Below are positions 3,686 through 25,314 of a stretch of 25,314 bases of DNA, piece after piece. Numbering within the stretch: the first letter of the stretch is position 1; each line of letters opens with the position of its first letter. The DNA comes from Baffinella frigidus (Eukaryota; Cryptophyceae; Cryptomonadales; Baffinellaceae). The notes under the pieces were generated by a model, which had not been told where the DNA came from, made no database searches, and saw only the letters and a program-made list of their open reading frames with translations. Position numbers and translations under genes: made by a program. The stretch covers positions 906,639 to 931,952 of the forward strand of contig MU646340.1 of assembly GCA_026770585.1 (NCBI GenBank). Reading direction: 5' to 3'.

Positions 3686-5441
3686 TATCGGAGGTAACCT
3701 CTCGACCGGAACCTAAAACCACAACTCTGAACTCTAAACCCTGAACCATAACCCTCATCCCGAATCCCTGATCCCTAAACCCTAAACCCTGAACTCTAAA
3801 CCCTAAACCCTGAACACTAAACCCTAAACCCTAAACCTTAAACACAAAACACTCAAACCTGAATCCTAAACCCTCAACTTCAATAACGAAAGCCCAAAAC
3901 TTGAACCCTAAACCTTATACTCTAAACCCTCAACCCTCAACCCTAAACCCTCAATCCTAAACCCTAAAACCTAAACCCTAAACCCGAAATTCAAACTCTA
4001 AACCCAAACCCTAAACCCTGAACCCTAAATCCTGAACCCCAAAGACTAAACCCTGAACCCTAAACCCTAAACCCTAAACCCTAAACCCTAAACCCCAAAC
4101 CCTAAACCCTAAACCCCAAACCCTCAATCCTCAACTCTAAACCCAAAACCCTAAACCCTAATCCCTGAACCTCAAACTCTAATCCCTAAACTCTTAACCA
4201 TAAACCCCAAACCTTATACCCTGAACCCTAACCATTCAACCCTCAAAACCTCAACCCCCAAACCTCAACACTCAACCCGAAACACCAAACTCTACACCCC
4301 AACACCTAATCCTAAACCATAACCCTCATTTCAAATCCCTGATCCCTAAACCCTAAACCCTGAACTCTAAACCCTAAACCCTGAACACTAAACCCTAAAC
4401 CCTAAATCTTAAACACAAAACACTCAAACCTGAATCCTAAACCCTCAACTTCAATACCGAAAGCCCAAAACTTGAAACCCAAACCTTATACTCTAAACCC
4501 TAAACCCTAAACCCTAAATCCTCAATCCTAAACCCTAAAACCTAAACCCTAAACCCGAAACTCAAACTCTAAACCCAAACCCTAAACCCTGAACCCTAAA
4601 TCCTGAACCCCAAAGACTAAACCCTGGACCCTAAACCCTATACCCTAAACCCTAAACCCTAAACCCTAAACCCTAAACCCAAAACCCTAAACCTTATCCT
4701 AAAACCTCAACCCTTAACCCTCAACTCTAAACCCTAAACCCTCAACTCTCAACCCTAAACCTTAAACCCTAAACCCTAAACCCTAAACCCTGAACCCTAA
4801 ACCCTGAACCCTGACCCCTAAAACCTTAACCCCCAAACCTCAACCCTCAACCCTCAACCCTCAATCCTCATTTCTTGACCCGAAACCCTAAACCCTAATC
4901 CCTAAACCACAAACTCTAAACCCTAAACTCTAAACCCTAAACCCCCAACATTATACCCTGAACCCTAACCATTCAACCCTCAAAACCTAACCCCCCAAAC
5001 CTCAACACTCAACCCGAAACACCAAACTCTACACCCCAACACTTAATCTTAAACCATAAACCCTAAACACTATCCTAAACTCTAAACCCTAAAACCTAAA
5101 CGCTAAACCTTAAATCCCAAACCCTGCCCCCCAAACCCTAAACCCTAAATCCCAAACCCTAAACCCTGAACCCCCAAACCTCAACCCTAAACCCTAGACT
5201 CTCAACCCTACACACCAAACTCGAAACCCCAATCCCTGAACCCAGAATCCTAACTTCTAAACTCTAAACACTAATCCCAATCCCGAACCCTGCACCCTAA
5301 ATCTTAAAACTCAACCCTAAACACTGAACTCCAAACCCTAAACCCTAATCCTCAACCCCTAGACCCCAACCCTTAACCCTAAAACCTAATCCCTAAACAC
5401 CAAACCCCAATCCCCAACCCGTCAACCTTACACCCTAAAAC

Positions 5442-5583
5442 CCTCGCCACCGGCCGAATGGGGTGGCACAAGGGCCTCACAGGAGCCCAGCAGCAGCAGC
5501 ACGGTCCATGCCAGGATTGCTCACCTCCGAAGAACGTCGCACCGACCTTCACGTCAACGAATCTCAGAGCACAGCACATGCCC
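5442..5583 (+). repeat. dispersed repeat, copy 1 (142 nt)
   Basis: The segment starting CCTCGCCACCGGCCGAATGG is nearly identical (about 4-5 differences in 142 nt) to 7025-7166, 1583 nt downstream. It is the only non-heptameric island inside the telomere-type array. It is followed by a second repeated phrase (5603-5656), shared with 8529-8612. Confidence 0.88.
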
Positions 5584-5656: not shown

Positions 5657-6530
5657 GCAAAAAACCCTGAACCCTAAACTCTAAACCCAGAAACAACGAA
5701 CCCTGAACCCTAAATCCTAAACCCTAAACCCACAATCCTAAACCCAAAACCCTTCACCCTCAACCTCAACCCTAAACCCTGGACCCTAAACCCTGAACCC
5801 TAAACCATAAACCCTAAACCCTGAAACCTAAACCCTAAATCCTAAACCCTAAACCCTAGACCCTAAACCCTGAACCCTAAACCTTGAAACACCGAACCCT
5901 GAACCCTTAATCCTAAACTCTAAATCTTGATCCTGAACCCTCAACCTTAAATCCTAAACCTGAACCCACAACCCTGAACTCCACACTCTCAACCCTAAAC
6001 CCTAAACCCTAAACTCTGAACCCTGAATCCTGAAACCTGAACCCTAAACCCTAAACCCTGAAACCTAAACCCTAAATCCTAAACCCTAAACCCTGAACCC
6101 TAAACCCCGAACCCTACACCTTGAAACACCGAACCCTGAACCCTAAATCCTAAACTCTAAATCCTAATCCTGAACCCTCAACCCTAAATCCTAAACCTCA
6201 ACCCTCAACCCTGGACTCCACACTCTCAACCCCAAACCCCAAACCCCAAACCCTGAATCCTGAAACCTGAACCCTAAACCTTAAACCCTAAACCCTAAAC
6301 CCTAAACCCTGGAAACTAAACCCTAGACCCTAAACCCTGAACCCTAAACCCAGATACACCGAACCCTGAACCCTAAATCCTAAACTCCAAATCCTAATCC
6401 TGAACCCTAAAACCTAAATCCTTAACCTCAACCCTCAACCCTGAACTCCAAACTCTGAACCCTGAACCTCAACCCCTAGACCCCAACCCCAAACCCTCAA
6501 CCCTAAACCCTTACACCAAACCCTAATCCC

Positions 6531-7024
6531 CATAGCCACGGGGTAAATTCAACCACATACAACCGGATGGAGGAGTCGGCTCCCTCAAGGATCCGACTTG
6601 AGCTGGATCAACTAACCGATCTGACGATCGATTAACCAATCCGACTCCTCCCTTTTCTGGAACCCAGAGGAATGATAGGTCTATATCGATGAGGTCGAAT
6701 TTTATGGTTCGTTAGTTACTTATTACGGATTCAGTGATCAGTAATCAGTAACTCCTCATCGTGGACCTACAAAACCTCTCCTTCTTCTTCGTCGTCTACC
6801 TCTTCTACTCCAATCTTCGGGGAGCATCCCTCGGAGACAGACTGAGCGGGGTATAAAATGGACCGATCATAGTCTGGTAATGGCACGGGTTAGGCAATAA
6901 CGGCGAAACCTCTTTAATAAATTCAGTAATCAGTAATCAACCCGTCAATCCTACACCCTAAACCGTAAACCGTAAACCCCAAACCCTAAACCCAAACCGT
7001 AAACAGTAAATTGTCGAAAAAAAA
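6531..7024. other. intergenic with inverted repeat and TATA-like site
   Basis: GGAGGAGTCGG at 6569-6579 is mirrored by CCGACTCCTCC at 6641-6651. The intervening DNA is itself rich in GATC/CGATC palindromic pieces. CAGTAATCAGTAA-type phrases recur near 6735 and 6925. GTATAAAATGG at about 6851 looks like a TATA box, but no gene is seen downstream. Confidence 0.6.
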
Positions 7025-7166
7025 CCTCGCCACCGGCCGAATGGGGTAGCACAAGGGCCTCACAGGAGCCCAGCAGCAGCAGCACGGTCCATGCCAGGAT
7101 TGCTCACCTCCGAAGAACGTCGCACCGACGTTCACGTCAACGAATCTCAGAGCACTGCACACGCCC
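7025..7166 (+). repeat. dispersed repeat, copy 2 (142 nt)
   Basis: This is the near-identical partner of 5442-5583. Identity ends abruptly after ACGCCC on the right, and on the left at an A-rich/CCCTAAA-like junction, so the unit boundaries are sharp. Confidence 0.88.
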
Positions 7167-7689: not shown

Positions 7690-7925
7690 TGACGTTTGGG
7701 GGTTAGGTGTTAGGGGTTAGGTGTTAGGTGTTAGGTGTGAGGGGTTAGGGGTTAGGGGCAGGGGGTAGGTTAGGGGTTGGGGGCAAGTCACACGCGTCAA
7801 AGCCAATCCACACGCGTTAGAGCTCACCCACTCGAGGCAATGCCTACCCACACGCTTCAGTCAGTGTTTAGTGTTTAGTGTTAAGTGTTTAGTGTTGAGT
7901 GTTTAGCGTTCAGTGCAACATGAGA
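7690..7925. repeat. G-rich TTAGGGG/TTTAGTG degenerate repeats
   Basis: 7693-7785 is a run of GGTTAGG, GGGGTTAGGGG and GGTGTTAGGTG units. 7866-7918 is a run of TTTAGTG and TTAAGTG units. Here the G-rich strand is on plus, opposite to the 3.7-6.5 kb array. Spaced repeats of CACACGCGT(T/C)AGAGC-like sequence lie between and around them (about 7650-8000). The G-tracts at 7693-7785 could form G-quadruplexes. Confidence 0.85.
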
Positions 7926-9106: not shown

Positions 9107-12100
9107 ATGGGATGCTGGGGGTCAAAAGACGAGGAGGTGACCGAACAGGAGATCACAGAGGCGCAGGGCAAGGCCGCCACGAAGGGCGGCTCCGCGCTGA
9201 CGGTGATCCCCCCCTTGAATTGGGACGAGCCCCCTCTTGATTAAATTGTGACGCTGCGCGAATAGGCGCGAAAACGCCGCACGGGGAGGGGGATGCGGCT
9301 GAGACGATTTTGCGTGTGTGCAGGGGACGACCTTTGAGTTGAAGGAGGACCGCGGATGCACAGACTTCCTCTGCCTGCTCATCCTCATCGTCTTCTGGGG
9401 ATGCATGCTCTTTGTGGGAATCCTGGCTTTCGTCCGCGGAGAACCTGCGCGGCTGCACAATGGCTACGACTTCAACGGAAACCTCTGCAACTTCGGCTCC
9501 AACGCTGTCAAGCCATACCTGTACCGACCTCAACCCGTCCCCGCTCCTGCACTCCTCAATGGAGGACACGGTGCCCTTTCCACGTTTGGACTGATTTCTC
9601 CGTGCGCGGGGCCCCGCAGATACTACCCCTACCCTTACGCCGTGGCTGGAGCGGAGCCAGACCTCACCTGGGCAACCTGCGTCAAGGAGTGCCCGTGCCA
9701 GAACGGCTGCCCCGGTGTCGAGCTCAGCGTCACCGCCCCCGACCTGTAAATAACCCCCCCCCCCGTCGATGCTCGACCCCCCTCGCGCCCTCTGCGGAGG
9801 GACCGTTCCAGAATTCTGCGGACCGAGGTCCAGCCATACCTACCTAGACTTCTCCAGCAGGACTGGCGCAGAGGGACCGTGCAGCACGTCTTGTGTGCAC
9901 CGCCATCCCCCCTCGGGCGCCATTTATGGAGGTAGCGAGAGAGCCTCTCACGGCGCTCTCCCGGCGCGGCGCGTGTGTCCAGGTGCATCATGGCGTTCAA
10001 GACGAAGATGGACAACGGCGTGGAGGTGACGTGCGGAGGCCTTGCGGACGGGCGGACGGAGATGTCGCAGTTCACGGAGATGAGCGCGCGCAACGCCATC
10101 GGCTTCCGCAAGTACTGCATGAAGCGCACGCCCGTGTGCTCCGACTGCAACAACGCCACGTGCTGCGACGGATCCAACCAGGTCATCGCGGGCAACATCA
10201 CCACCGACTTCAACGAGACCGCGTACCCAGAGCTCAAGAAGTTCGGGATCCCGCTGGGGCACAAGTACGGCTTCTGCTTCGTGCCCTACCCCTCCGCCAA
10301 GACGAGCCTGCTCACGCGCTGCCTCCCCTACCTTCTCCCCGACACCTCCTCCTTCGCCGAGGCGCTGAACAGCTACGACGAGTCCGCCAACGGGACCACC
10401 GGGAATGCGACGGTGAGCAAGGAGGACATCGAGAGTGGCTTCACGGGGGTGCTCAACGCCTTCAACAATCCGGGCGAGACCTTCAACTCCCTCATGGACG
10501 AGGTATCCGCGTCGGGACCCGAGCACAAAAAAATCCCAAACCATCAACTCTCAGCCCTCCACCCTAAACCCTACGCCCTAAATCCTAAACCCTAAACCCT
10601 AAACCCTGAACCCAATCCCAAACCCTGAGCCCTGCACCCTGAGCCCTGAACGCTTCACCCTTGACGTGATGTCCGCAGGTGAACGAGCACAAGTACTGGA
10701 TCCTGATGTCGGCAGGCATCGCGTTTGTGGTGTCGATGATCTACACCATCCTGCTCCGCGTCGCCGCGCTGCCGCTGACGATCGTGATCCTCATCGCCAT
10801 CTGGCTGATGCTGGGCGCGAGCACGGCGCTGCTCTTCTTCAAGGCGGGCGTCATCAAGCAGTCGCAGGTGCCGGTCGAGCTGTCGGGCATCACGGCCATG
10901 GACCTCCCCGCAGGTTGCCCCCGAGCACCCCCTGTGAGAACTTATGGCGTGAAAAGTGGACCGCACCAAGTGTGACCACTGTGACCCCCACACGAGTGAC
11001 GCTCCCGGGGCCTCTTGTTGGCCCTCAGCACGCGGCCTCGCTCCATGCCGTTTTTTTTGAGTCTTTCAGAAAACGAACTGTGTTGCCACCCCCCCCTGCC
11101 GAGACATGTTTGACGTTGCGCGGAGCGCCTCTGTCGGCGAGTCTGTTGTGTGTGGCAACTGGCCCCTAAACCAAATCCTTAACTCACAGGTTTCTCAAGT
11201 GACCCCTCCACCCTCAACCTGCAGGGCTTACGCTGGATGCGGCAAAACAGAACCAGAACTTGTTGATCGTGGCGGCGGTGGTTGTCGCGGTGTGCTTCGT
11301 CATCTACTCGCTCCTCTTCTGCATCATGATCCCCCGCATCATGCTCGCCATCAAGGTATCTATCTACCCACGCCAGGTCGTCAGTGAGAATTTCAGACCG
11401 CAATCGTTCGTTTCGTGGTACTGAATGGTACGTAGCCACCTGGCGAGACGCAGCTCCTCGACCTTTACACGTCCGGTCAGAATACAAAATTTCGGATCAG
11501 GGTACAATTTTTTAAATAAGGCTTGTATCCGAAATTCCAACTTATGACCTGGCGTGGCTACCGAGGACGCCCCGTGGAGGGTCGAACACATAATACGGTT
11601 ACGAGGTGAGGGTCCAGGGTTGAGGGGGAGCGATTGGTGCACCTTGGTGCCATGCGGGGGAAGCCTCCTTCCTGTCAGGAGGCTTCCCTCAACTTTCCCC
11701 AACTTTACTGAAAGCCTTGACTGAAAAACAAGACCTACAGTAAAGTCTCTGGGTGGCAGGTGATCAACATCGCGTCGTCGTGCGTCGCGTCGATGCCCAC
11801 CATCTTCCTCTGCCCCATCATTCAGTTCTTCTGGATGCTATCGCTCTTTGCATGGTGCCCCCCTATCCCTCAACCCTCAACCGTCAACCCTCAACTCTCA
11901 ACCCTCAGCCCTCAACCGTCAACCGTCAACCCTCAACTCTCAACCCTCAACCCTCAACCATTAACCCTCACCACACCATGCACTCTGAACCCTACACCCT
12001 AAACCTTGAACTCTAAACCCAGCGATGCCCGAAGGTGTTGTCTGCCCCCTTCCCCCCACCCCTGGATGCTGGCCCGTGCAGTGAAGCCTAGGCACTGATA

Positions 12101-15100
12101 CCCCTCATTTCTCCAGCGTCAACCCCGAGATTGTGTTGGGCATACCCCGGCTGAAGTGTGGCCGCTCCTCTGTCCGCAGGTGGACAGCCGTGGCGGTATT
12201 CATCGCGTCAGTTGGGGAATGGAACGCGGAGGCTCACCAGTACCAGTGGGATGACGCCACTCGCTGGTGTGCCCTCTCCTCCTCCTCTGCCCGCCCACCC
12301 CCCAGCCCCACGCTCTCCGTGCACCTTCTTGCTCAGACGCTCAACTTATTTCCTCTGTACGATTGAAAATGTCCGCTCTTAGCCGCGCCTCACGTCTCGC
12401 ACCGAAACCCGAGAGCAGTGATCCATGCGTCGTCGGAGCTGCGAAGTAACAGCGTGTGGTGACCCTCGGCAGGGCCGCGGTGTTCCACTTTTTCGGACTG
12501 CTCTGGGGGCGGGCGTTCATCCTCGCGTGTGGCCAGCTGGTGATTGCTGGCGCCGCCGCCCAGTGGTCAGCCCCCCGACGCAGCCTCCCCAGACACAATC
12601 CCATTCTCAACCCGAACACCAACGTTGACATCTTTCTTGAGGGTTTGGGACTTTATCGCATGTAGGGGCAATGTTGAAGATATCCAACCCGGCGCCCCAA
12701 CCCGGCACGCTGCACCCAGAGCGCGAGACGGCCTGGGGCTTGCGCGGATGAGTGCCCCCACCGCATCGCGTAGCCATGCCTTGAAGGTGATCAAATCATG
12801 CAGCGCACGGACGAATGACGCACCCTGCGCATGGTCGGCAAGAGTGCTCGCGCGAGCGAGCACGGCCGCTCACGGAACCTCCTCACGTGCATTGTCAGGA
12901 CGCTGTGAGGACGGAGCCCGAGGATGGACGGGCCCGCCTCGGACACGGCGCCGCGTTATCTCGGGTATTGACTGTGCTGACATGGTTGGTCGCAGGTTCC
13001 TGGCGAGCGACAAGAAGGTGCTGACGCTGCCGGTCGGGGGCGCGATCAAGCGCACGGTTCGCTACCACCTTGGCACCGCGGGCCTCGGCTCCTTCCTCAT
13101 CGCTGTCGTCCAGTTCATCCGGTGCGCTGCCCCCCCCCCACCCCCCCGTCGCCCTGCGGACGAGCGGTGGAGTGTTTCGGGACGTGATGTTGAGTGTTCT
13201 TTGGGCGGGTTGGCACCGCGGCGCGCGAGAGAGTGAGGCGCGCGCGCGCGAGAGAGAGAGAGAGAGTGAGAGAGTGAGAGTGAGAGAGTAAGAGTGTGCG
13301 AGAGAGAGAGTGTGAGAGAGAGTGAGAGAGAGAGAGAGAGAGTGACGGTGTGGGGTGATGCAGGTGGGTGTTCCGGTACTACATGTACCAGCTCAAGAAG
13401 CTCGACAAGGACAGCCGGGTCCGTCCCTCCGCCGATGTCATTCCTTGCCTAGGGCCATCGCCTCGTCGTTGCGTCCCACCGCCGAGTCGTTGCTTGCCTT
13501 GGGACCTGCCTCGACTCCCCGCCGCACCACTTTCATCGACCTGGATTGAACCACGCACTGACAGTCAGTTCTGCCCCCCACCTCCTAGCCCCGCGCGCAA
13601 ACCCGTGCTTGCTGACTCAGACTCTCGTGTTCCTGTCGTGCGTCGGGAGTTGCTTCCTGTAGCCTCGCGCTCAACCCTGTGCACGGAACATTACGTTGTG
13701 TTATTGCGGGGGAGATGTGGTGCACCACACACACTCCCGAAACGTCTCGCAAGCGATCGAGCGCACACTCCACCCTCGCACGATCCATCAGACGGCAACG
13801 ACACTCACTCACTCCACCCTCTCTCGTGGGGAGGCAGGTGGCGCCGTGCCTGACGCGAGTGGTGGCAGCGGCGTGCGTGCCTGCCAGGTAGTGGCGTGCC
13901 TGCCTCGAGAGTGGTGGTGGCGGCGTGCGTGGCAGGTGGTGGGGTGCCTGCCGTGCATCGGACAGTGCTGCTTGACTCCACCCTCTTGGGAGGAAGCAGG
14001 TGGTGGCGAGCCTGACGAGAGTGGTGGTGGCAGATTGTGGGGTGCCTGACGTGCATCGGAGAGTGCTGCCTGTGGTGCCTCGAGAAGTTCCTCGACTTCA
14101 TCAACAAGAACGCCTACATCCAGGTCCGTCTCCACCCATCCAATCTACGCCCGCAGGCCAAGCGGTCCACACCATCTTGAACGTAAATCTGACCTGGTTC
14201 TGGTCCGTGAGGGGACAGCAGAATGCCCTCTCTTATGACGACACGTGGACCCTACCAAGTGGACCGCACCAAGTGGACCACTCTCACCCAAACACTCTGC
14301 AAAGGCATTTTGCGAACAACCCATTCGTGAATAGGGCATGGGACCCTACGCAAGACCATCCCGTTGGGACATAGGCTGGTCCTGCAGACATTGTAACCGA
14401 TTCTTGGTTGGTATCCCACCCCGAATCCCTTCGTAGCCCGCTGTGTGGCACACTCGCGACTCATCACTGCTTTTCCTGGTGCAGAGCCCGTCCGGTTTGG
14501 TCACTCTCGTCGGTCATAACCTGCTCAGTTACTGAAAAGTCGTGATAGTGTCCCCCTCCTTCTCCACTTATCCGCACAGCGTAGGGCCAGAACAGCGATG
14601 GAAGGCTGTTCAGGAGGTCGCTCTTTCCCGTCAATTTTGAGCATACAAGGTTTTCACAAAACAACTCAGCCGCTGAGGTTGCTCACCCTTCTTGTTAACT
14701 GCGTGGGTCGGAATTCTCTGGAGCAAGAATGCAGCCTGCTGTTGAAGTCGCCCTGCCGCTCCCCTGCCCTTCATCTCCTCTCCTCCTCTTCACCCCCCAG
14801 CCTGCTTGCCCCCCCGTCCGACCGGTGAAAACTCCAGCACATCCTTTTTTTTGTTCTGTTATTTCTACATTCAAGTGGCTGACGGATGGTGTGGGTGGAC
14901 AGACGGCGATCAACGGGACGTCGTTCTGCACGTCGGCGGGCGTGGCGGCAAGCCTCCTCATCCGCAACTGCCTCCGCCTCGGCGCCATCACCATGTCTCT
15001 GCCCCCCCCCTCATATCGGATCCGAATTGATAGTCAAACTTTACATACACTGGTCCTTGCCAGATTCACCATGCAAGTCTCCCACACAGCGACACCTCCT

Positions 15101-17026
15101 CGATAGTCAAGGGCTGAGTGCGATAACCACGGCGTTTTGCGAAAGCAAGGGCTCGTTGCGATCGCGAGGGCTTGTGCAAAAGCAACTTGACTGTCTTTGC
15201 CAGATCCCCTCCGCCCGTGAGTGACTCAGCCAGAGTCGCTGAATCCTGTTGGAACCCCTCTCGGTTCTAGCCAAAACCGAGACCCAAGTGTTGGGTGCCG
15301 GGCGTCAGTGGGAGATTGGTGCACTCAGCTGTGCCATGCGGGTGCACGGCGTTGCGCTGTAAAGAGCCGTGCGTAGGTGCCGTGTGTAGGTGCGGAGATG
15401 GTGCCTGACGTGTTGTGATGCGTCTCACGTATGGTGCCTGCCGTGTCGCGCGGCGTCTCACGTGTCCGACGCGGAGGAGTTCCGGACGAGGAGGATTCGG
15501 TTTCACGTGTCTGACTCCGAGGAGGTCCTGACGTGTCGGGGTGTGTGGCAGATGCTCGTCGCTGTTCATCTTGATCGGCAAGATCTTCATCGCTGTCGGC
15601 ACCGGTAACACCTCTCCTCCTTCACCACGCCACACGGAGAACACACGCACAATTCAGGCCTGTGCTGGGCACGGCACACGCCCAGACCACCACCACACCC
15701 CTCAAAAGCCTGTCTCTTCTTCGTGTGCCGTGCCCAGCACAGCCCTGACATATCCGTGTTTTCTCCTTGTGCCGTGGTGAAGGAGGGGTGTATGCTCTCA
15801 GTTTCACACCGGAAGAGATTTGAAGGAGTGATGCAGCGTGGCGTGGAAGTGGTGTTCTGAAGAGGTTTTGGGGCGGCAGCGCTCATCACGGCGTTGATCA
15901 TCGTGGGTGGCGAGTGGGACAACATCACCAAGTACCCTCCCTCCCTTACCCGCACACATTTTGACCACGAGCACGTAGACACTGAGACACTGGTCCATTT
16001 ACTGCACATAATTCGACCCCTCACCTCTCAATCCGTTCCTGGGGCACCTCGCTGAAAAGACCCCCCCCCCCCCTTCCCTCACGACCACCGTAAGGCCGCA
16101 GGCATCTGCCTACTGTCGGGTCCTGGGAGGATGGTGTGTGTGATTAGCGAGTAAACGCGCGCTGACACACGCACGGCGCCGCTGGGTTTGATGGTGGTGG
16201 TGGTGGTGGTGGTGGTGGTGGTGGTGATGGTGGTGGCGGCGGCTTACGGTGCGTGCACGCAGGGCGCCGATCTTTTCGATGGTGGTGGTCGTCTTGCTGG
16301 CGTACGCCATCGGGGCAGCCTTCCTCGACGTCTGGGACATGTGCATTGATACCATCTTCCAGGTCCGAGTGCCTCCAACCCCTACCCCCTAAACTCTCAT
16401 CCCGAATTCCTACACCCCACCTCCCAAACATTAAACTCTAATCTTGATTCCCGAACCCAAATCCCAAACCCTAAACCCCGAACGCCGGGGCAACGCCGCT
16501 GGTTGCCGCTTGGTGGTAATGGATCATCGCCGATGGGTTGTCGACGTTGGTGCGTGTCAAGACATGCTGTCGCACAACCTGTACTGATCCTCCGTACTGA
16601 GCGGTAACAATTTTGACTCAGCGTTGGAGTTTTTTGTGTGAAAACATTACCCTGAACCCTATCCTAAACCCTAACCCTCAACCCTAACCCCTAACCCCTA
16701 ACCCCTAACCCCTAACCCCCGACCCCCAAACAAATCCCCTAACCCCTAACCCCCAACCCCCAAAACAGGCGTACCTGATGGACATGGAGATGGGCACGGG
16801 CAAGGCCACGGGCGAGCTCAAGAACTTTGTACGTGCCCCGAAACCCTTCCCTCAGCGAACCCCGAACCTTCCGCCCTACACCCTGCACCCTGCACCCTGC
16901 ACCCTGCACCCTACACCCTACACCCTGCACCCTACACCCTGAACCCTAATGTCCGAAGCGCACCCGCAGGTGGCGGAGAACGAGCCGAAGGGCAAGGACA
17001 TCAAGGCCGCGACCTCGCACCTCTAA
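9107..17026 (+). CDS. choline transporter-like protein (CTL/SLC44 family)
   Basis: Multi-pass membrane protein of the CTL/SLC44 family, whose animal members carry choline (and ethanolamine) across plasma or organelle membranes. Exons: 9107-9202, 9324-9745, 9983-10502, 10679-10913, 11225-11355, 11760-11854, 12180-12266, 12473-12565, 12996-13121, 13364-13418, 14034-14123, 14903-14994, 15552-15604, 15880-15931, 16263-16362, 16769-16828, 16970-17026. All introns are GT-AG and every phase matches, giving 787 aa, slightly longer than typical members (about 650-720). The N-terminus MGCWGSK fits an N-myristoylation plus palmitoylation signal, and human CTL1 also starts MGC. EDRGCTD precedes TM1 (about 47-69). 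A large Cys-rich outer loop follows with KPYLY, CVKECP and five Asn-X-Thr sequons (about 70-346). Further hydrophobic segments lie near 353-373, 375-400, 436-460, 482-512, 534-560, 585-602, 672-712 and 718-748. Family signatures include FHFFGLLWGRAFILA, RYHLGT, CLWCLEKF...NKNAY and FCTSA. Substrate is inferred from the family only. Least certain: the first donor and the start of exon 11. Confidence 0.92.
10548..10666 (+). repeat. CCCTAAA-type array in CTL intron 3
   Basis: About 15 degenerate heptamers (CCCTAAA, CCCTGAA, CCCTGCA) lie in intron 3 (10503-10678). The C-rich strand is the sense strand, and the last unit lies about 15-20 nt before the AG acceptor. Confidence 0.9.
11428..11567. repeat. 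imperfect fold-back in CTL intron 5
   Basis: AATTTCGGAT and ATCCGAAATT are perfect 10-nt inverted arms around a short AT-rich loop. Outer segments (GTAGCCACCTGGCGAG at the left, GACCTGGCGTGGCTAC at the right) also partly complement. The central part is convincing, the outer part weaker. Confidence 0.55.
11658..11688. repeat. perfect 12-bp hairpin in CTL intron 5
   Basis: GGGAAGCCTCCT (11658-11669), a 7-nt loop, then AGGAGGCTTCCC (11677-11688). It is about 70 nt upstream of the exon 6 acceptor, so it could affect splicing. A related GATTGGTGCAC...GCCATGCGGG phrase flanks it and recurs near 15315 in intron 12. Confidence 0.8.
11862..12020 (+). repeat. CAACCCT/CCGTCAA array in CTL intron 6
   Basis: A heptamer array in which CCCTCAA dominates rather than CCCTAAA, with CCGTCAA variants. 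The C-rich strand is again the sense strand. Local homogenisation of one variant suggests tandem amplification within this intron. Confidence 0.9.
13122..13363 (+). repeat. CTL intron 9: poly-C tract and GA microsatellite
   Basis: This intron starts with interrupted runs of C just after the donor (about 13130-13147). From 13227 to 13343 it is a CG/GA-rich microsatellite of GAGAGA and GAGTGA units. It ends in GATGCAG at the acceptor. Confidence 0.85.
13811..14073 (+). repeat. tandem duplication of intron 10/exon 11 boundary
   Basis: Copy 1 (13811-13974) and copy 2 (13975-14073) both begin ACTCCACCCTCT and share GGAGG(A/C)(A)GCAGGTGG, GCCTGACG(C)GAGAGTGG, GGTGGCAG, and the start of exon 11 (TGGGGTGCCTG-C-GTGCATCGGA-AGTGCTGC). 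Copy 1 contains extra internal GTGGTGG...GGCAG repeats. The real exon 11 starts at 14034 in copy 2. The decoy acceptor in copy 1 (CAG ending 13935) opens a frame reading VVGCLPCIGQCC that runs out of frame through copy 2 and hits TGA near 14046. Confidence 0.82.
14124..14902 (+). other. CTL intron 11, no recognised element
   Basis: A long intron (779 nt) with short duplicated phrases (CCAAGTGGACC twice near 14252-14280) and a pyrimidine-rich 3' third leading to the acceptor at 14902. The open frames in it show no family signal. Confidence 0.6.
14995..15551 (+). repeat. CTL intron 12 with imperfect minisatellite
   Basis: This intron (557 nt) starts with a C9 tract just after the donor. From about 15400 to 15545 it carries four or five diverged units of TGCCTGACGTGT / TCTCACGTGTCYGACGCGGAGGAG type. 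No gene is seen within it. Confidence 0.6.
15614..15788. repeat. 175-nt fold-back element in CTL intron 13
   Basis: Left arm 15614-15680 and right arm 15722-15788 (67 nt each) are reverse complements with about 10-11 mismatches. The innermost 18 bases (CTGTGCTGGGCACGGCAC-type) and the outer CTCCTTCACCACG are perfect. The loop is about 41 nt and pyrimidine-rich. It begins only 10 nt after the donor of intron 13 (15605-15879), so it occupies most of the intron. Size and design match the intergenic element at 1916-2054. Confidence 0.87.
16188..16240 (+). repeat. GGT trinucleotide microsatellite in CTL intron 14
   Basis: About 15 near-perfect GGT units upstream of the exon 15 acceptor. On the minus strand this reads as poly-His, which explains an open frame there. 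It is not coding. Confidence 0.9.
16376..16766 (+). repeat. CCCTAAA/CCCCTAA arrays in CTL intron 15
   Basis: Two arrays (about 16376-16482 and 16650-16766) flank a unique middle segment. The second array is dominated by CCCCTAA and runs directly into the CAAAACAG acceptor of exon 16, so the repeat itself supplies the pyrimidine tract and CTAAC-like branch-point candidates. Confidence 0.9.
16850..16946 (+). repeat. CCCTGCA/CCCTACA array in CTL intron 16
   Basis: This array is dominated by CCCTGCA and CCCTACA heptamers inside a 141-nt intron (16829-16969). The C-rich strand is the sense strand. The dominant variant differs from that in other introns, suggesting local homogenisation. Confidence 0.9.
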
Positions 17027-17327
17027 GCGCGCGCCTCCTCACGCACACGCGTCTCCTCAACCGCGCGCGCCTGATCCCACCTCTCCTCTCAGCGCGAGCG
17101 CCTTTCCTTGTCCAAGCCCTCTGGGAACAGCAGGGCCGACCTTTAAAGTAAAGACACGATTTGAAGTAAACACACGATCACGGATCTCGCGTCACGCACG
17201 GCAGACTGTACATAGTCCCCGCACGGAGTCTGCCGTCGTCTCACGGACAGGGCCTACATGTTTCTTTGCCGTGTATCACGAAACCCCTTGGCTTCCTTCA
17301 TTACATGTACACGTGCACGAACCCCCA
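17027..17327. other. convergent 3' regions of two genes
   Basis: This 301-nt stretch separates the CTL stop codon from the stop of the opposite-strand methyltransferase. Both 3' UTRs and poly-A sites must lie here or overlap. AAGTAAA occurs twice near 17146-17170 on plus, and TGTAAT (the TGTAA type used by green algae) occurs on minus near 17305. Neither can be confirmed as a signal. Confidence 0.5.
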
Positions 17328-20300
17328 TCACTGCATCTCCTTCAAAAACGCCAGGGCCTCCACGAGCGTGAGCCCCCCCCCCGCGTCGCCCCCCCCCCGG
17401 CCAGGACTGTCCTCGAGAAACGCCTCGACGTCTGCGCGGAAGGCATCAAGGTCGTAGCCGTACTCATCTCGCATCTCCTCTTCGAAGAGCACCTCGTGGC
17501 ACGCCGACAGCTCCAACCGCCCTGCATGGCCAGAGAGATCCTCAGCCGAAATGTGTGTACCCGTGCCACCGACCAACACATGTGTAGAGAGGGTGGGCGG
17601 CGGGAAGGGAGTGCAAGGCCGCTCAGGAGGGTGGGTACCCAGCATATTGCGTGAGATGGGCCCACCTCGGGACAGACAGGCCCTAAAGGCCTGCCTCGGG
17701 ACGGAGTTGAGAAAGTGGGCGGTGACCGTGTGGAGAGTCGGCAGGCAGTCGCGCCTTGAATTGCCGCTCAATGTCCTTTTCCTTGTCTGCCGTCAGGAGG
17801 GGGTCTCCCTCCACGTGCCACCACTGCACACACCACCACGCCCAGAGGTTCATCGGAAGGCTTCTCATTGCCAAAAGCTTCATGCGGGAACACGGCAATG
17901 CGTATCTAGGCTCATAACCTTACAGTCTAGGTGCCCTCATAGCTTCCGGTTCAGCAAACCTAACGAAAGACAAGGGGTTCCGTGTGTCACGATTCTTTTG
18001 GTTTGGAACGGCTGGTGGAAGCTGCGTGCGCCAGATGCAACATGAGGACCCGACGGGCGGGCAGAGTGTGCGGTCCCACGCGCATGCTACTCACATGCGT
18101 CTGTTCCTGTATCAGGGGGCCGTGGAGCGGACCTTGATGATTGCGTCTTGATACTCTTTGACGGTGTCCACAGAGGGTTTGCCGCACGAGGCCGTCTTCC
18201 GAACCTGCCAAAAAAGATGTATTGTGAGTTCCGATGCGATTCGACAACTCTATTTTGGGGCATGATGCGAGTGGGGTTCGGTGCATGGGCCCCGTCATAG
18301 CTGCTCCGCGGCACAAAACCCTTCCGACGCAAGGCACGCACACGTTTGAACTGAACCATTTTTTACACGAAATGCTTTTCTTCACCTTCTCGCACGAAAG
18401 GTCTTCCGACACACGCATACACCTCTAGCACACGAGAGGTAGACATGCATCGGACAGACCGCAGCACCGCAAGGTGCACCCGGGCGGGCGCGAGATGGGG
18501 CGGGCGCGAGACCACATAGAGGTGCGCCTCGCGGGTCGTCGAGGTCATGGGGATTCGAGAGGCCTGGATCTCCAGAGGAAGACCCGGCACCGCCAGCAAC
18601 CTGCCATCATCAACTTCCAGTAACCTTACTGTTTCAAGTAAGCACCCCCACCACCACGCATCTCACACTTGGATCTCACACTTGGATCTCATGCTGCAAC
18701 ACGCTCCCAACGGGGTTCACAAAAATTCGAGGGATTGTCAATCCGAGCCTGCCCAACGGGATGAGCGATCCCCTGAGGAAAAGAGAACTGTAGCTGACAT
18801 TGCGACGTCACGCAGCCTAGGGGGGGGGCGACATCTGGGCAGATTCCCCAGGGGTGAGGGACCGTTGGAAGCTCACTTGGTGATGAATTCGTTTGGACGG
18901 AAGGAGATGACCGCGTAGACGCCCTGGGGAGGGGCGGGTCTAGGGTTAAGGGTTTAGGGGTGTAGAGTTTAGGGTTGGGGGTTTGGGGTTTAGGGTTTGG
19001 GGTTTGGGGTTTGGGGTTCAGGGTCCAGTGTCCAGTGTTCAGGGTTTAGGGTCTAGGGTTTATGGTTCAGTGTTCAGTGCTCAGGGTTTGGGGTTTAGGG
19101 TTTGAGGATTAGAGTTAGGGTTTAGGGTTTAGGGTTTGAGTTTTAGGATTTGAGGTTTAGGGTTCAGGGTTCAGGGTTTAGGGTTTAGGGTCTAGGGTTT
19201 AGGGTTTAGGGTTGAGGTACCTCTCACCGATCAGGGGGTGCGGGGTTCTGGCAGAGGGGTGGGGGTAAGAAAAGAGAACACTGCTCACAGCAGTGTGCGC
19301 CCTGCTCATCAAAGTCTATGTCCTAAACCTCAAAGTCTGTGTCCTACACCTCCAAGTGTGTGTCATCAACCTTCAAGTGTGTGTCCTAAACCTCCAAGTG
19401 TGTGTCCTACACCTCCAAGTGTGTGTCCTACACTTGCATGGAAGAGACCTGGGGGGCGAGGAGGCGGACGATTTCGCAGATCATGTGAGAGGCCTCGTCC
19501 GTGCACAGCAGCGCGTCCAGCGTCCCCTGTCGCCACGCCCGGGAACCGTCAGCACTCTGTGTGTGTGCAATCGTCTTTGTGCGTGGAGGGGCGTGCCTGT
19601 CCGTGTGCAATACCAGCGCCCAACGACGAGAGCAGGCGCTACGCATTCGGCAAGGCAACCAGTCTCAGGAAACAGATGGGGCGGGGGACGAGCCTTGTCG
19701 AAGATGAGTTCAAACGCCTCAGCATCAGGCAGCTCCTCCTCGCACTTGGTCATGTCCGCCACGACCCACGCCAACCCCGGGTGGCTCTCCTGGGTCTTGT
19801 CCTGCATGTGCGCAACCTGGGCCGCGTCGATGTCGGCGCTGGTGACCTTCTCGTACCCCGCCCCGAGCAGGTCCTCGCTCAGCGTGCTGGTCCCGCACCC
19901 CACCACCTGCGCCATCCACGCGATTCCCGCCCACGGTCACTCGACCGAGTCGCGCGGCACGTGGCGTGGCCCAGCGCGGAGGGGTTGTTGCAGGGTACCC
20001 CGGCCCGCGCAAGGTTGGCTGCTGCATCAGTCGCAGGCGCAGGTGGGGAATGGTGGAGGGTGAGTACCAGCACGCGCCGCGGCTCCGGGACACGTAGCGC
20101 CTCGGGCGTCACCTGTTGCACGCCTCAGATTTCAAGGCGGGCACGCGGCATTGGGCAGCGGCACTTGGAATCCTTCCCACTCGACTCGAGGGAGACCAAG
20201 GCGCCGCAGGGCTTTGGTCTGGGAATGCTTCTATGCTGCGAACCACCCGTTCATGTCTCAGTGTGAAAGACGCTCTTCCCCCTCTTCTTCGGCAGCACCA

Positions 20301-20771
20301 GCGATCCCGGGGGCCAGTCTGGTTTCTGTGCGAGAGCCACTGCTTTTTCTCGCTCTTGCCAAAATGCAATCCCTGAGACACTCACCATGTGCGCGAAGTC
20401 CGGAAAGTCGACAATCCAGTCGAACGTGCCACACGCTTCACCGTCTGCGAGTCCCGTGCCCGCTGCCCGCAGCTCTGCCAACGACGCCTGCATAGAGAAG
20501 GTCAGAAAGACGTGCCGCGAAAAGCTGCAGGGTTGCCTATTGGCGGTTGTACCACCTCGACGCACGGGTGCTGTCGGTTGTAGGGAGTGGGGATGGTGTT
20601 GGCACAGTGCAAGAAGCCCTGAGCATTGGACGGGGGAAGAGCTGCAGAGGCCGGTGATTTCTCAGGATACTCGATCATTTCAGGGAGGGATCGCCCCCCT
20701 CTGCGTGCACACGTCCTTGCCTATCATGGCAACAGGCGCCCGACCTGCATCTCTGGAGAAAGCTTCTCCAT
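17328..20771 (-). CDS. EEF1AKMT4/METTL13-like SAM methyltransferase
   Basis: Class I SAM-dependent methyltransferase resembling the eEF1A-lysine methyltransferase 4/METTL13 group, which methylates lysines on protein targets. The substrate here is inferred. Exons in transcript order: 20771-20745 (tentative), 20487-20386, 20112-20068, 19906-19694, 19526-19449, 18923-18877, 18600-18513, 18204-18133, 17823-17727, 17521-17328, giving about 320 aa. All phases agree. Motifs: FDWIVDF (about 32-38) in the pre-fold helix, LVVGCGTS (SAM loop, about 58-65), acidic SADID after strand 2 (about 81-85), VVADMTK (about 106-112), FDKGTLDALL (about 127-136) and AHLYVVRK near 203, the usual end of the fold. About 115 further residues follow: WWHVEGDPLLTADKEKDIE, then an acidic stretch with LFEEEMRDEYGYDLDAF, then a Gly-rich tail. 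I do not recognise this extension. The FDK/GTL junction needs a GC donor (AAG then GCTCGT). The usual YWDxRY element before FDW is not visible. A longer start at 20912 (MSWVAWCLFFIAA) would add a hydrophobic leader. Confidence 0.85.
17522..17726 (-). other. last intron of the methyltransferase gene
   Basis: A 205-nt GT-AG intron (donor GTCACC, acceptor CCATGCAG). It contains a duplicated GCCTCGGGAC-like phrase (reads as GGGAC/CCTCGGG on plus near 17668 and 17693) flanking AGGCCCTAAAGGCCT, a near-palindrome. Confidence 0.55.
18940..19216 (-). repeat. CCCTAAA-type array in methyltransferase intron
   Basis: On plus this reads TTTAGGG, TTTGGGG, TTCAGGG, TCTAGGG and TTGAGGG. On the minus (sense) strand it is therefore C-rich. 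It lies in the intron between the exons encoding LLAPQ and GVYAVISF, ending about 17 nt before the acceptor at 18924-18926. The orientation is reversed relative to the CTL gene but the same relative to transcription. Confidence 0.92.
19308..19437 (-). repeat. 21-bp minisatellite in methyltransferase intron
   Basis: About six imperfect 21-nt units of the form GTGTGTCCTACACCTCCAA (plus strand). Because the unit is a multiple of three, it makes a repetitive antisense open frame (VCVLHLQ repeats). It begins next to the donor of the exon at 19526-19449 and abuts the CCCTAAA-type array in the same intron. Confidence 0.85.
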
Positions 20772-20912
20772 GCCACCGACGTGCGTCCCGCTAATGCGAA
20801 ACGGCGGCAGGCAGGGGACCGCGCCGATCGCTGCTCCACCAGCGGTGGCTGAGACGCGAAACTCCGAAGTTGATGCTGCAATGAAGAACAGGCACCACGC
20901 GACCCAGCTCAT

Positions 20913-21294
20913 CAAACCGCACCCTGCGAGCCCATGGAACGGACTTCCTCCACACTCAACCACCTGACCTCGATCTGGATCTTGGGCGCAACCACGCGTG
21001 AGGAAACAACCACCCTGGGCCGGATTCTCGTTCGTGGAGATTCTGTGCGGGGAGGCCCGACGTTTTTTCCTGAGAGCTGCCTTTGATTTCGGTCTAAAAC
21101 AGTTGTGAAAATTCATAAAGTCAATTTACAAACCAATATTCATCTAAAGTTGTAGTAATTGGAGCCTTGCATGGCCCTGGCAAGGCCATCAGAAATCGAA
21201 AGACAGGGTGACGGGCGACGAGGCAAAATCAGACGAGAATTTCCTCTGTTCGTCCGTCCCTACAGAGACGCCCCGCTGTTCGGCCTTCCCTAGC
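20913..21294. promoter_or_regulatory. divergent promoter region
   Basis: This interval separates the minus-strand methyltransferase start from the plus-strand glycoprotein start. 21060-21170 is clearly AT-rich (for example AAAATTCATAAAGTCAATTTAC) in otherwise GC-rich DNA, as expected for a shared promoter. No firm TATA box can be assigned. A copy of AATTGGAGCC occurs near 21158. The interval shrinks or grows with the start chosen for the methyltransferase. Confidence 0.5.
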
Positions 21295-24253
21295 ATGGCA
21301 CCATGTGGAAGCGCCGACCGGCGCCGCGGGAAGCGCTGGCAGCTGCCTGCCACTGCGGCACTGCTGTTCGTGATCCAGATTTCAGCAGACGAAGATCCAG
21401 ATTCAGACGAAGAGCTGGAGGGCGTGGCCTCTTGCTTCCAGATCCTGGATCCGCCACACGGCCACATTTCCTCGTGAGTGCCCACTCTGCAGCTAGTAGC
21501 GTTCGAGCGGTCAGGTCCGGATGACGATCCAGGAGAAGAGCTCAAGGCGGAATGAGCGCTGATGGACTGTACTCCGTTCCTCACCCCTCCGAACCCTGCC
21601 ACGCAGGGAGGAAGAGCTGGTCAAGGGGCACAACTTCTACCTCATGGTCAACTGCGAGGGATTCGCTCGCGCCAAGACCGTAGGGTCACTCCCCACCCGC
21701 AACCTGCGACCCGCAGTTTGAAGGTAAAACCCCGAGGCGAGTAAGTCGAAGCCCTACGAGGCATCTTGCCTTGCGAGGACGAGACCTCGCATTGCTTCTG
21801 CCGCAGCGCTTGCATGCAGTCCTGCCATCGCACGCACATCAGCGATGTGACCCCGCCCCCCGTCGAAGGTGGGCGCTGCAAGGACAAAGCTTTGAACACG
21901 AACTGGAGCCGCACGTCGAAGAAGGCTACGTCCTTGACTTCCACGTTCCGCGCGGCAACTTCGAGATATCGATGAACCTCACCCGCAAGGACGGGTCTCG
22001 CCCTCCCTCCAACTGCCACGTGCCACCAACCCTCTCCATTGAATCAGAAGCCTTTTTTTTCCCGGCACACACCTGTACTCTACACCGTAACCCTTCAATC
22101 CTCACACTGAACAGTAAACCTCGCCGCACTTTACACCCTGAACTCTAAACCCTACACCATAAACCCTAAAACCTAGACACCCCCTAAGCCCTAAACGCTA
22201 CAAACGCAGATCAGTGGAGCAGGCGTGGACGCTGCTGCACTGCATTCCGCTCATCAACCCGCGCCTCGAGATCCTCTTCCCCCCGGAAGGCTTTGTGTAC
22301 ACTCCTAATCCCTGGACCCTGAACCCTGAACCCTAAACCCTGAACCCTAAACCCTACACCCTACACACTAACCTTACACCTTACACCCTAAACCCCAAAC
22401 CCTACACCCTAAACCCTAAACCCTACACCCTAAACTCTAAACCCTGAGCCCTTAACCCTATATCCTGAACCCTAATACTAAAACCCAACACCCTACACCC
22501 TACACCCTACACCCTACAACCTACACCCTACACTCTAGACCCTAAACCCTAAACCCTAAACCCTGAACCCTGCACCCTTCACCCTTCACCCTCAACGCTC
22601 AACGCTCAACGCTCAACCCTCAACCCTAAACTCTAAATACCAATCCCTGAACTGTAAACTCTAAATCTCAAATCCTACATCCTAAACCTTGAACCCGAAC
22701 CCCCAAACCCCAAACCCCAAACCCACAACCCCAAACCCGAAACCCTAAACCCTAAACTCGAAACCCTGAACCCTAAACCCCATACCCTGAACCCTAAAAC
22801 CAAAACCCTACACCCTACACCCTACACCCTACACCCTACACCCTACACCCTACACTCTCGACCCTAAACCCTAAACCCTAAACCCTAAACCCTTCAACCT
22901 TCACCCAAAACCTGAACCCAAAACCCTAAACCCGAAACCCTAAACCCTAAACCCCAATCCCTAAACTCTAAACTCTAAATCCTACACCCTAAATCCTAAA
23001 CCCGAAACCCGAAACCCGAAACCCTTAACCCTCAACCCAAACCCCACACCAGGTACCACGCAGACGTTGCCCCATTTATTGTCGTCCACGTGGTAACACC
23101 CACGCGCCCTTCTAATCTGCTCTCACCCTTTTCACCTTCAAAACATTGAAATTCCCGATGCAAGTTCTGAGTTGTAGGTACGCCACGTCTTCTCCTGCCC
23201 GGTCCACGATATATCTCCCTAAACCCTACACCCTACACCCTACACCCTAAACCCGAAACCCTAAACCCTAAACTCTAAACCCTAAACTCTAAGCCCTCAA
23301 CCCTCAACTCTCAACCCTAAACCTGAAACCGCAAACCCTGAAGCCTGAAGCCTAACCCCGTGTGGACGCCCTTGGGGCTCTTTCACCAGCGGGGGTTCCT
23401 CGTCATGGGGGGGGTTTCGCCCAGTGTCCGCCCCGCAGGGAGAGGTTCGATGCGTTGCGATCGAGATGCAGCGGTGCGATCGAGAGGGTCAAGGGTCAAT
23501 GTGGACGTGGCCATGACGAGAGGGTGAATATGGCGGTGGCCAGGTCGGGAGGGTGAGTATGGTGGCGGGTGGGCAGGTGGAGACTCCCGGGACGGAGGCG
23601 ATCCGGGGACCGATGCGTTACATCCTCGACATCCAACTCACCGCCACCTCCCCTCACGACAACTCCACTGTCTTCCCTGGTTGTCCCCCGCCCAACGAGT
23701 CAATCTGCCTCAGATAATCTTTGCTCCTGGTTACATGAATTCAGATCAGGACTCTGAAGCCCTGCCTCAGGTAATCTGGGCTCCTCGTTTAATGGATTTA
23801 GAGCAGGACTCCGTACAGACGCTCTGGTACAAACAGCATCTACATGTATTTATTGAGGAGCCCCGAGTAACGGACGCTGTGCGTGCGTCACTCTTGGGCG
23901 GTGACAGCGCTTTCTGCCCTCCAGTGTGACATGTAGAGCTCTGGGTAGTTCTGAATCGAGGAGTTGGCAGGGTGACTCGCGTGCCCCCCCCTCGCAGAAT
24001 CGCTCCACTGCCAGGGCGGTGATGAGTGCTTCCTGAAGACGACAAGTTGGATGGTGTTGATGGAGCCAAGGCGCTCTCTGCAGAAGTTCCCTCCCCCAAG
24101 GGCGATTCCAGGTCCGTCATTTCAGACCCCCCCCCCTAGGCTGTGGGGCATGCGGCTTCGAAGGCACACACTGCACTTATTCAGTGAATCGTCTGCGGTC
24201 TTTGCGTCGGCCTGGTTCTCCTCTTCCTTTCCCCCTCTCCCTCTCCCCCTCTC

Positions 24254-24290
<37 letters not shown>

Positions 24291-25314
24291 ACCCCCCCAC
24301 ACGCTGGGTTCCAACGTGTCCCGTGTACGTGTCCCTTTACCCAACCCCCGGGAGGGCGAGACAAGAGTCATCGCACGAGAACATCCCCTCTTCAAAAACG
24401 GCTCAAGTGACGGGAGGAGATAGATACATGCCTCTGCCAATGAGTTTGCGATGCATGAACAAAAAGTTTGCTACCAACTGATTTGGCGGAGGATATTGCG
24501 GGGCGTAGCGATGCTATCTCCGGAGAACCGAATCATCCCGCGGGCGTCGGACCTGATCTTCCTGCACCCGCTGCACCCGGACGTCAACTTCGAACCTCGC
24601 GCGGCTGACTTCGCACTCTCCGTCAAGCTCTGGGATGCGAGCTACTCTGTCTTCGTCCAGGTCCGTTGTGGCCCCGCCACCCCTCGGCACTTCCTTGACA
24701 CACCCATAGGTTGACTGAATCTTATTCGTCACGGTAGTGTCGACACTTCCTTGACCCCTGGGTAGTAAAGTTAGTACCCATGGCAAAAATAGGCGACTCT
24801 GACGCGGCATGTACTTGAGATGCCTGTGCCACAGACTCCAAACCACCAACTCGACCCTCTGATCCGGCAAGCACGAAACAGCGAGGCACCCGGCGCTTCG
24901 TCAACTCTTCCTGCACCCGCATGCACGCCTCACGCCCAGACCTCGCGCGACTAACCCCCCCCCCCTATTCAGGAGGTGGTGCTCAACATCTCGCACAGTC
25001 CAAACACCTCCTACACCTCCGCTGAAGCGCCCCCCCCCGGCGAATGCTCCAGCGCAGACCCCGCCGCCTGCCCGCGCTCTCCTACTCCCCCGCACGCTCC
25101 CGCGCACACCCCATCATGGGAACCCCCCGGGGACGCGCCGGAGGCTGGGGGTGTCGGGTGCAGAGGGGACACGCTCGGAGAAGGGTGCGCGTTTGACATG
25201 ACGCGCGATGCGGCGTACCTCCCGGACGTGGTGCCGGACGCGTCCAAGGGAAGACGGGAGGCTGCCAAGCACTGGGCGGTTGGCGTTGCTGCCCTCCATC
25301 GCTCCCTGCATGCC
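21295..25314 (+). CDS. secreted glycoprotein with tandem beta-sandwich-like repeats (5' part)
   Basis: Family not recognised; incomplete at the window end. Proposed exons: 21295-21473, 21607-21679, 21807-21994, 22210-22296, 23053-23092, 23577-23679, 23998-24111, 24509-24660, 24973 to beyond 25314, all GT-AG, all phases matching, at least 426 aa. Residues 9-14 are basic and 17-31 hydrophobic (LPATAALLFVIQISA), a signal peptide or anchor; an acidic mature start follows. Three segments share a pattern of Leu/Phe-Ile-x-x-Pro, a loop, then alternating hydrophobics: CFQILDPPHGHI (about 51-62), RLEILFPPEGFVYHADVAPF and DLIFLHPLHPDVNFEPRAAD (about 272-291). I infer Ig-like extracellular or ER-luminal domains. 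Asn-X-Ser/Thr sequons occur in MNLTRK, DNSTV, LNISHS and PNTSY. The last exon is Pro/Cys-rich. The exon 7/8 junction is uncertain: donor after 24085 with acceptor before 24492 also keeps frame. Confidence 0.68.
22075..22206 (+). repeat. CCCTAAA-type array in glycoprotein intron 3
   Basis: A short degenerate array (CTACACC, CCCTAAA, CCTAGAC) ends directly at the acceptor of the exon at 22210. C-rich strand is sense. Confidence 0.85.
22310..23050 (+). repeat. CCCTAAA/CCCTACA array filling glycoprotein intron 4
   Basis: Nearly the whole 756-nt intron (22297-23052) is degenerate heptamers. Two blocks of tandem CCCTACA (about 22495-22535 and 22806-22856) are followed by very similar ACTCT(A/C)GACCCTAAACCC sequence, an internal duplication with offset about 316. 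Variants include CGCTCAA and CCCGAAA. C-rich strand is sense. Confidence 0.92.
23093..23576 (+). repeat. glycoprotein intron 5 with CCCTAAA array
   Basis: A unique segment (23093-23216) is followed by an array (23217-23360) of CCCTACA, CCCTAAA, CCCTCAA and CCTGAAG units. A GC-rich segment with duplicated GATCGAGA(T/G) then runs to the acceptor at 23576. C-rich strand is sense. Confidence 0.85.
24255..24298 (+). repeat. poly-C tract
   Basis: Thirty-six consecutive C (24255-24290), one A, then seven more C, preceded by a CTCTCC-rich stretch. It lies in the intron before the exon at 24509. The length may be unreliable in the assembly. The proline-rich and glycine-rich open frames across it are artefacts. 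Confidence 0.9.

Follow-up and report, generated by a model that had tools for sequence, protein, structure and literature searches.

Internal arrays of telomere-type repeats, intronic transposable elements and C-rich intronic splicing enhancers are the closest described systems to a pattern that we analysed in the cryptophyte Baffinella frigidus: degenerate arrays of the heptamer CCCTAAA, and runs of C in introns, tend to follow the sense strand of the gene that holds them. The window, meaning the whole stretch of 25,314 nucleotides that was analysed (C38:906639-931952), carries a choline transporter-like gene (CTL) and a hypothetical-protein gene (GLY) on the plus strand, with a methyltransferase gene (MT) on the minus strand between them. 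For strain CCMP2293, a size of 534.5 Mb with 41.1% repeats is given in PMC9756366.

Described systems and how the arrays compare

Interstitial telomeric sequences, too, are degenerate arrays of a telomere-type unit (TTTAGGG) that lie internally and sometimes within introns; in B. frigidus, arrays of CCCTAAA and its variants lie internal to a contig of 1,211,062 bases. In a review of such sequences, orientation is treated for replication and instability (PMC6410037). The B. frigidus arrays differ in being very frequent (53,120 overlapping exact 21-mers in 382 Mb; 39 arrays in ∼100 kb) and in being biased in orientation relative to the gene. Plant telo boxes, short AAACCCTA motifs that were tallied for each gene compartment of Arabidopsis and of rice, have the unit in common with these arrays but are single motifs. 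In that study they peak in 5′ untranslated regions, and their intron frequency is close to the genome-wide mean in Arabidopsis and a little under it in rice; its main text contains no word starting with strand, sense or orient (PMC3022908).

Intronic transposable elements of mammals likewise depart from 50:50 relative to the gene, and one study attributes this bias partly to cryptic splice signals (PMC3088655); the B. frigidus repeats, however, are simple heptamer arrays with no demonstrated exon-proximity effect. In two human introns whose pyrimidine tracts are weak, C-rich motifs are described as enhancing splicing from within the intron (PMC2481429); the same paper refers to a C-rich enhancer close to the donor of a chicken intron, and to a C-rich silencer, and PCBP1 is reported at a C-rich tract (PMC5829739). 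The likeness lies in C3-C4 motifs within introns with weak pyrimidine tracts. The human motifs lie upstream of the pyrimidine tract, whereas the B. frigidus C-tracts lie just past the donor, and G-tracts, the scarcer kind in B. frigidus, act as enhancers in the human introns. Precedents exist for parts of the pattern (orientation-biased intronic transposons, PMC3088655; C-rich intronic enhancers, PMC2481429), and a literature search that covered little of the subscription literature found nothing on how telomere-type arrays in algal introns are oriented with respect to the gene.

Orientation of the heptamer arrays

Arrays were called from 14-mers with at most three mismatches to (CCCTAAA)n, in clusters of at least 20 hits. 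The window holds 14 array blocks, nine intronic and five outside modelled genes (Table 1). Seven of its 30 modelled introns (24 in plus genes, six in the minus gene) contain arrays, namely CTL4, CTL7, CTL16, CTL17, GLY3, GLY4 and MT3, and all seven are C-rich in sense (two-sided sign test p = 0.0156, assuming that introns are independent; three of three when counted per gene). The hypothesis was derived from the very data on which it was tested here, and since the minus gene has a single array (MT3), the window alone cannot part gene strand from chromosome strand. Three stretches below the calling threshold run the other way: 11607-11626 and 12636-12653 are G in sense, and 19316-19335 has C on plus within the minus gene.

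The outside sample comprised 200 kb of the same contig, of which 99,836 bases are N, leaving ∼100 kb readable. Its 39 arrays, 22 with C and 17 with G on plus, are interleaved within 150 kb, so that a chromosome-arm driver, which the original prediction had named as one outcome that would overturn it, is unlikely. Ten sets of joined open reading frame (ORF) pieces were compared with Pfam; seven matched, one of them, the plus-strand GST, below the Pfam cut-off. Restriction to these Pfam-matched genes left 16 arrays out of 39; they fall in 11 introns, with three adjacent blocks of NFACT taken as a single intron. The 23 arrays dropped include one C and one G array in one gene without a Pfam match. 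The genes that we take to be ECM4-like and PGAM-like belong to the Pfam families GST_C_2 and His_Phos_1, respectively, and the PGAM-like array follows the last exon found, its intron status depending on an inferred donor. Eight of the 11 introns were C-rich, two G-rich and one mixed in sense. Pooled with the window and with the mixed intron excluded, 15 introns were C-rich and two G-rich (p = 0.0023); plus genes had ten C-on-plus and no G-on-plus introns, against two and five in minus genes (Fisher p = 0.0034). In the pooled data, orientation relative to the host gene therefore departs from 50:50 in introns. The original prediction, that every clear array is C-rich in sense and that orientation flips with the gene, was right for the seven introns of the window, but across the contig it describes a tendency and not a rule, and its absolute wording is wrong.

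The commonest unit varies by intron (CCCTCAA, CCCTAAC, CCCTGCA, CCCTACA), which suggests separate local expansion and argues against introner elements, which are many near-identical mobile copies with their own splice sites. By eye, 5444-5560 and 7025-7150 are near-identical stretches (CTCGCCACCGGCCGAATGGGG...) that follow non-genic array blocks, hinting at a duplicated unit that carries array ends. An array-bearing NFACT intron (C38:623000-623950) contains an apparent decayed second copy of the preceding exon (GGTGCTGGAGCGGGCTGCCACCAGCGA), with arrays flanking it on both sides. Over the 382 Mb, the exact 21-mer had 27,288 forward and 25,832 reverse matches (overlaps counted), compared with 14 and 13 for a reversed control. 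Heptamer arrays of the telomere-type unit were also seen in 20 stretches from records filed as bacterial genomes or metagenome-assembled genomes; scans of viral and prokaryotic contigs for the heptamer gave 0, 32 and 20 loci, which were inspected for arrays only and not used.

The spliced CTL model, in which two introns were adjusted against the B. frigidus protein P0001, equals that protein letter for letter over 754 amino acids. Most MT exons are supported by tblastn with P0007, a transcript protein of Rhodomonas, and with a relative, P0006, which brackets the array intron MT3; exon 18133-18204 is our own reading of the sequence. The seventh intron and last exon of GLY are likewise our own model. 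A home-made hidden Markov model gene finder fitted its training window but did not carry over to genes kept out of training: with CTL alone as the training gene, it found 17% of the exon bases of GLY and 14% of those of MT, and with GLY and MT as training genes, 43% of those of CTL. On the 200 kb it produced micro-exons, and its calls were discarded. Four matches from a myosin family search were likewise set aside.

Table 1. Genes, arrays and long C- or G-runs of the window, and array introns of the outside sample
Feature	Position	Strand	Remarks
CTL gene (choline transporter-like, PF04515)	9107..17026	+	18 exons, 17 introns, all GT-AG; Pfam 2.4e-78
Methyltransferase gene (Methyltransf_25)	17328..20490	-	Six introns modelled; Pfam match; 5′ end and last intron uncertain
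Hypothetical-protein gene (GLY), 'glycoprotein' of the original prediction	21295..25314	+	Extends past window; B. frigidus T484DRAFT_1770650, P0020
Array in CTL4	10531..10651	+	C-rich in sense
Array in CTL7	11864..12022	+	C-rich in sense; commonest unit CCCTCAA
First array block of CTL16	16377..16485	+	C-rich in sense
Second array block of CTL16	16647..16764	+	C-rich in sense; CTAAC at -30 and -23 from intron end
Array in CTL17	16874..16951	+	C-rich in sense; units CCCTGCA/CCCTACA
Array in MT3 (intron 18924-19448)	18934..19219	-	C-rich in sense; 10 nt from intron end; only array of the minus gene
Array in GLY3	22077..22203	+	C-rich in sense
First array of GLY4 (intron 22295-23576)	22304..23050	+	C-rich in sense
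Second array of GLY4	23214..23359	+	C-rich in sense
Three arrays outside modelled genes	3712-5443, 5660-6534, 6945-7010	+	C-rich strand on plus
Two short degenerate arrays outside modelled genes	7693-7783, 7861-7915	-	C-rich strand on minus
G8 run in GLY4	23407-23414	+	G in sense; sole exception among 15 runs
G9 on plus, C9 in sense of MT4	18820..18828	-	In run count
C36 run, then C7, in GLY6	24255..24290 (C36), to 24298 with C7	+	Very long for a mononucleotide run
C-rich-in-sense introns, outside			NFACT two, ECM4-like one, hydrolase, GST, TRM5, ankyrin, PGAM-like
G-rich-in-sense introns, outside			NFACT two, one array just 41 bp
Mixed intron, outside			ECM4-like, inverted C/G pair

C-runs and splice-site context

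The C-run bias of introns is independent of the arrays and stronger than the array tendency. Runs were counted with arrays masked in the 24 plus introns, the six minus introns, 31 exons and six non-genic stretches. In sense, runs of four or more (4+) were C rather than G by 67:23 in plus introns and by 19:6 in minus introns, compared with 14:15 in exons and 33:40 in the six stretches; at three or more (3+), exons had 59 G-runs and 36 C-runs. Permuting gene-strand labels over introns gave one-sided p values of 0.00006 (4+), 0.00026 (3+) and 0.010 (5+). For the six minus introns alone, exact sign-flip p values were 0.031 (3+, C-runs exceeding G-runs in all six), 0.0625 (4+) and 0.25 (5+), and the C-run excess exists there despite equal overall C and G (521 and 523). 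A general base skew of introns was rejected as the cause: for introns without arrays, (C-G)/(C+G) is 0.067 in the plus genes and -0.002 in the minus gene.

Longer runs follow the same course. Of 15 intronic runs of seven or more in the window, 14 are C in sense, in both gene directions, among them the G9 on plus near 18821 that the original prediction had correctly read as C9 in the minus gene. Its more general statement that intronic poly-C follows sense holds for these 14 and fails at the G8 of GLY4, on which it was silent. Two C10 runs (17373-17382 and 17389-17398) are G-runs when read along the minus gene, but both belong to its last exon. Outside the window, the bias recurs in 25 inter-exon intervals of seven genes (81:37 at 4+, sign-flip p = 0.014; 208:118 at 3+; 33:13 at 5+, p = 0.054), in minus genes (50:20 at 4+) and in plus genes (31:17). 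Each interval spans the gap between one ORF piece and the next and may include missed exons, as two apparently do; of 27 intervals, two were excluded for overlap or for a length under 60 bases, and a hydrolase ORF piece at 111145 was omitted.

The C-tracts crowd the donor end of the intron. C4+ density was 24.5/kb in the first 40 nt past donors versus 7.7/kb mid-intron (p = 1e-5), positions +7 to +46 of the 23 array-free introns are 42.6% C and 20.7% G, and over the same positions, array introns included, 24 of the 30 introns have a C-run longer than any G-run, one shows the reverse and five are tied. Outside the window, 342 sites with a loose donor motif had the longer C-run downstream in 158 and the longer G-run in 101, versus 108 and 152 upstream. 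The donors of the window (introns 9203-24972) are themselves unusual, C being commonest at +3, +4, +7 and +8 and GTCCGT occurring in four of 30 introns, and they do not follow GTAAGT. Among the 30 modelled introns, MT intron 2 (19527-19693, minus) alone departs from GT-AG, with a GC-AG pair. The acceptor consensus is GCAG/GT, without a pyrimidine tract: the pyrimidine share at -30 to -6 is 50.8% versus 52.7% in array-free introns. C-tracts are, that is, enriched in introns whose acceptors lack such a tract. CTRAY, a branch-site-like motif, occurs at -32 to -18 in ten of 30 introns, compared with 2.0 ± 1.3 in shuffles. Two other simple repeats were seen in sense in CTL introns, a (GGT)n at 16190-16245 shortly upstream of the CTL15 acceptor, the last 109 nt before which have no AG, and a GA-rich repeat at 13230-13350 in CTL10.

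Splicing as a possible cause, and competing explanations

Splicing is the likeliest candidate for the cause of the bias, and we put the chance that tolerance of the C-rich orientation by splicing explains the arrays at about even. Heptamer arrays are very common in the genome and occur in both orientations, and the introns carry sense C-tracts that are densest just past the donor and acceptors that have no pyrimidine tract. A C-rich sense array would resemble such an intron, with CCC tracts, sometimes a CTRAY motif, and almost no AG or GT; a G-rich one would add G-tracts together with one AG and one GT per unit, many in an acceptor-like context, and would disturb splicing more often and be lost, leaving a strong tendency. 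CCCTAAA contains no AG and no GT, its complement one of each, and in silico reversal of the nine intronic blocks gave 216 AG and 271 GT in place of 16 and 6. In the reversed arrays, 77 of the 216 AGs and three of the 271 GTs score above the lower quartile of the window's real sites, compared with none unreversed, and the 16 CTRAY motifs within the arrays fall to zero on flipping. Taken with the donor-side C-tracts, these counts favour tolerance by splicing. The data show the tendency in orientation, the C-tract bias with its position, the lack of a pyrimidine tract at acceptors and the counts of splice dinucleotides; we infer that splicing acts as the filter and C-tracts as a splicing aid. C/T-rich splice-helping sequence was one of two causes put forward in the original prediction, and it fits better than the other, but the signal is at the 5′ end of the intron and not in an acceptor pyrimidine tract.

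A number of results weigh against this account. AG is not rarer in intronic arrays (17/1882 steps) than in those outside genes (13/2670 with the two G-on-plus blocks left out), p = 0.096 in the opposite direction. Array ends are not significantly nearer acceptors than under uniform placement (p = 0.21 and 0.27; small sample), and in this small sample neither was the bias stronger near splice sites nor were cryptic signals depleted in the copies. A splice-score test on 38 array flanks gave 14 C and 24 G (p = 0.14), and 20 arrays flanked by single-strand coding-like ORFs gave 12 C and 8 G in a noisy test, the coding-potential strand score having placed ten of 37 scorable window ORFs on the wrong strand even though it was trained there. 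Outside the window alone, neither the 8:2 sign test (p = 0.11) nor the gene-strand Fisher test (0.076) is significant, C-runs are ahead in just 12 of the 25 intervals and G-runs in eight (4+), and stricter donor motifs are few and mixed (10:4, 7:3, 15:3 and 2:2; the two broken-motif controls had six and four sites). The scarcity of G-runs outside arrays is unexplained by AG and GT. Dinucleotide shuffles of plus introns already yield C4+ and G4+ counts of 66.4 and 21.8 (observed 67 and 23), so that the plus-intron asymmetry is largely one of CC versus GG, and C-runs stand clearly above shuffles only from 6+ (22 versus 10.7). NFACT intron 1 (298 nt) is a firm exception: it holds a 213-bp array that is G-rich in sense, with five G-quadruplex (G4) motifs and 32 AGs, and splices MSALDLQ to VQARTLRATSVGMRVANIYD. 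In one ECM4-like intron (C38:683519-684125), a C-rich and a G-rich array form an inverted pair, whose RNA could fold as a long hairpin. Since there is no AG avoidance and no significant pull towards acceptors, and the flank test leaned the opposite way, a splicing filter, if real, would act on orientation at insertion or expansion.

A bolder form of the splicing explanation, which we hold tentatively and consider doubtful, is that cryptophyte nuclear introns are recognised by a C-tract code just downstream of the donor that replaces the acceptor pyrimidine tract, and that arrays spread through introns by supplying it, as C-tracts and CTAAC branch sites without AG or GT.

The second cause of the original prediction, selection against pre-mRNA prone to G-quadruplexes or R-loops, supposes that G-tracts in sense impair transcription or the processing of RNA and that the G-rich orientation is purged from transcribed DNA for this reason. 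The window's introns have no G4 motif in sense, with antisense ones in ten of the 30, and plus introns have 80 G3+ runs against a mononucleotide expectation of 111. Dinucleotide shuffles account for that count (83.3), however, and the clearest effect is the excess of C-runs beside donors. As a blanket ban the idea fails, and the case for any general bar to G-rich pre-mRNA is weakened, because exons, equally transcribed, carry more G-runs than C-runs, a (GGT)n stands near the CTL15 acceptor and NFACT intron 1 keeps its sense G4 motifs. We regard this explanation as unlikely.

More improbable still is an origin by mutation and not selection, in which transcription destabilises G-rich non-template tracts, so that they shrink, while C-rich tracts in sense are kept or lengthen through slippage: the bias does follow gene strand and the C6+ excess of plus introns over shuffles is slippage-like, but the bias is absent from exons and the C-runs gather at donors instead of spreading evenly. 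A small-sample impression, offered for the arrays only, in which either orientation arises, local expansion aligns neighbours and plus genes happen to hold C-on-plus arrays, draws on the single minus-gene array and three-gene count of the window, the outside-only and noisy tests, and the near-balanced genome-wide 21-mer strands (also compatible with a gene-linked rule), but is just as improbable given the pooled Fisher test and an array-independent C-run bias that, in each of two separate samples, reverses with the strand of the gene.

If the pattern with splicing as its likeliest cause is genome-wide, the arrays would be a natural experiment on simple-repeat orientation and splicing. In cryptophyte introns, a C-tract signal would then stand where a pyrimidine tract is usual, and such arrays should not be taken lightly for neutral insertions.

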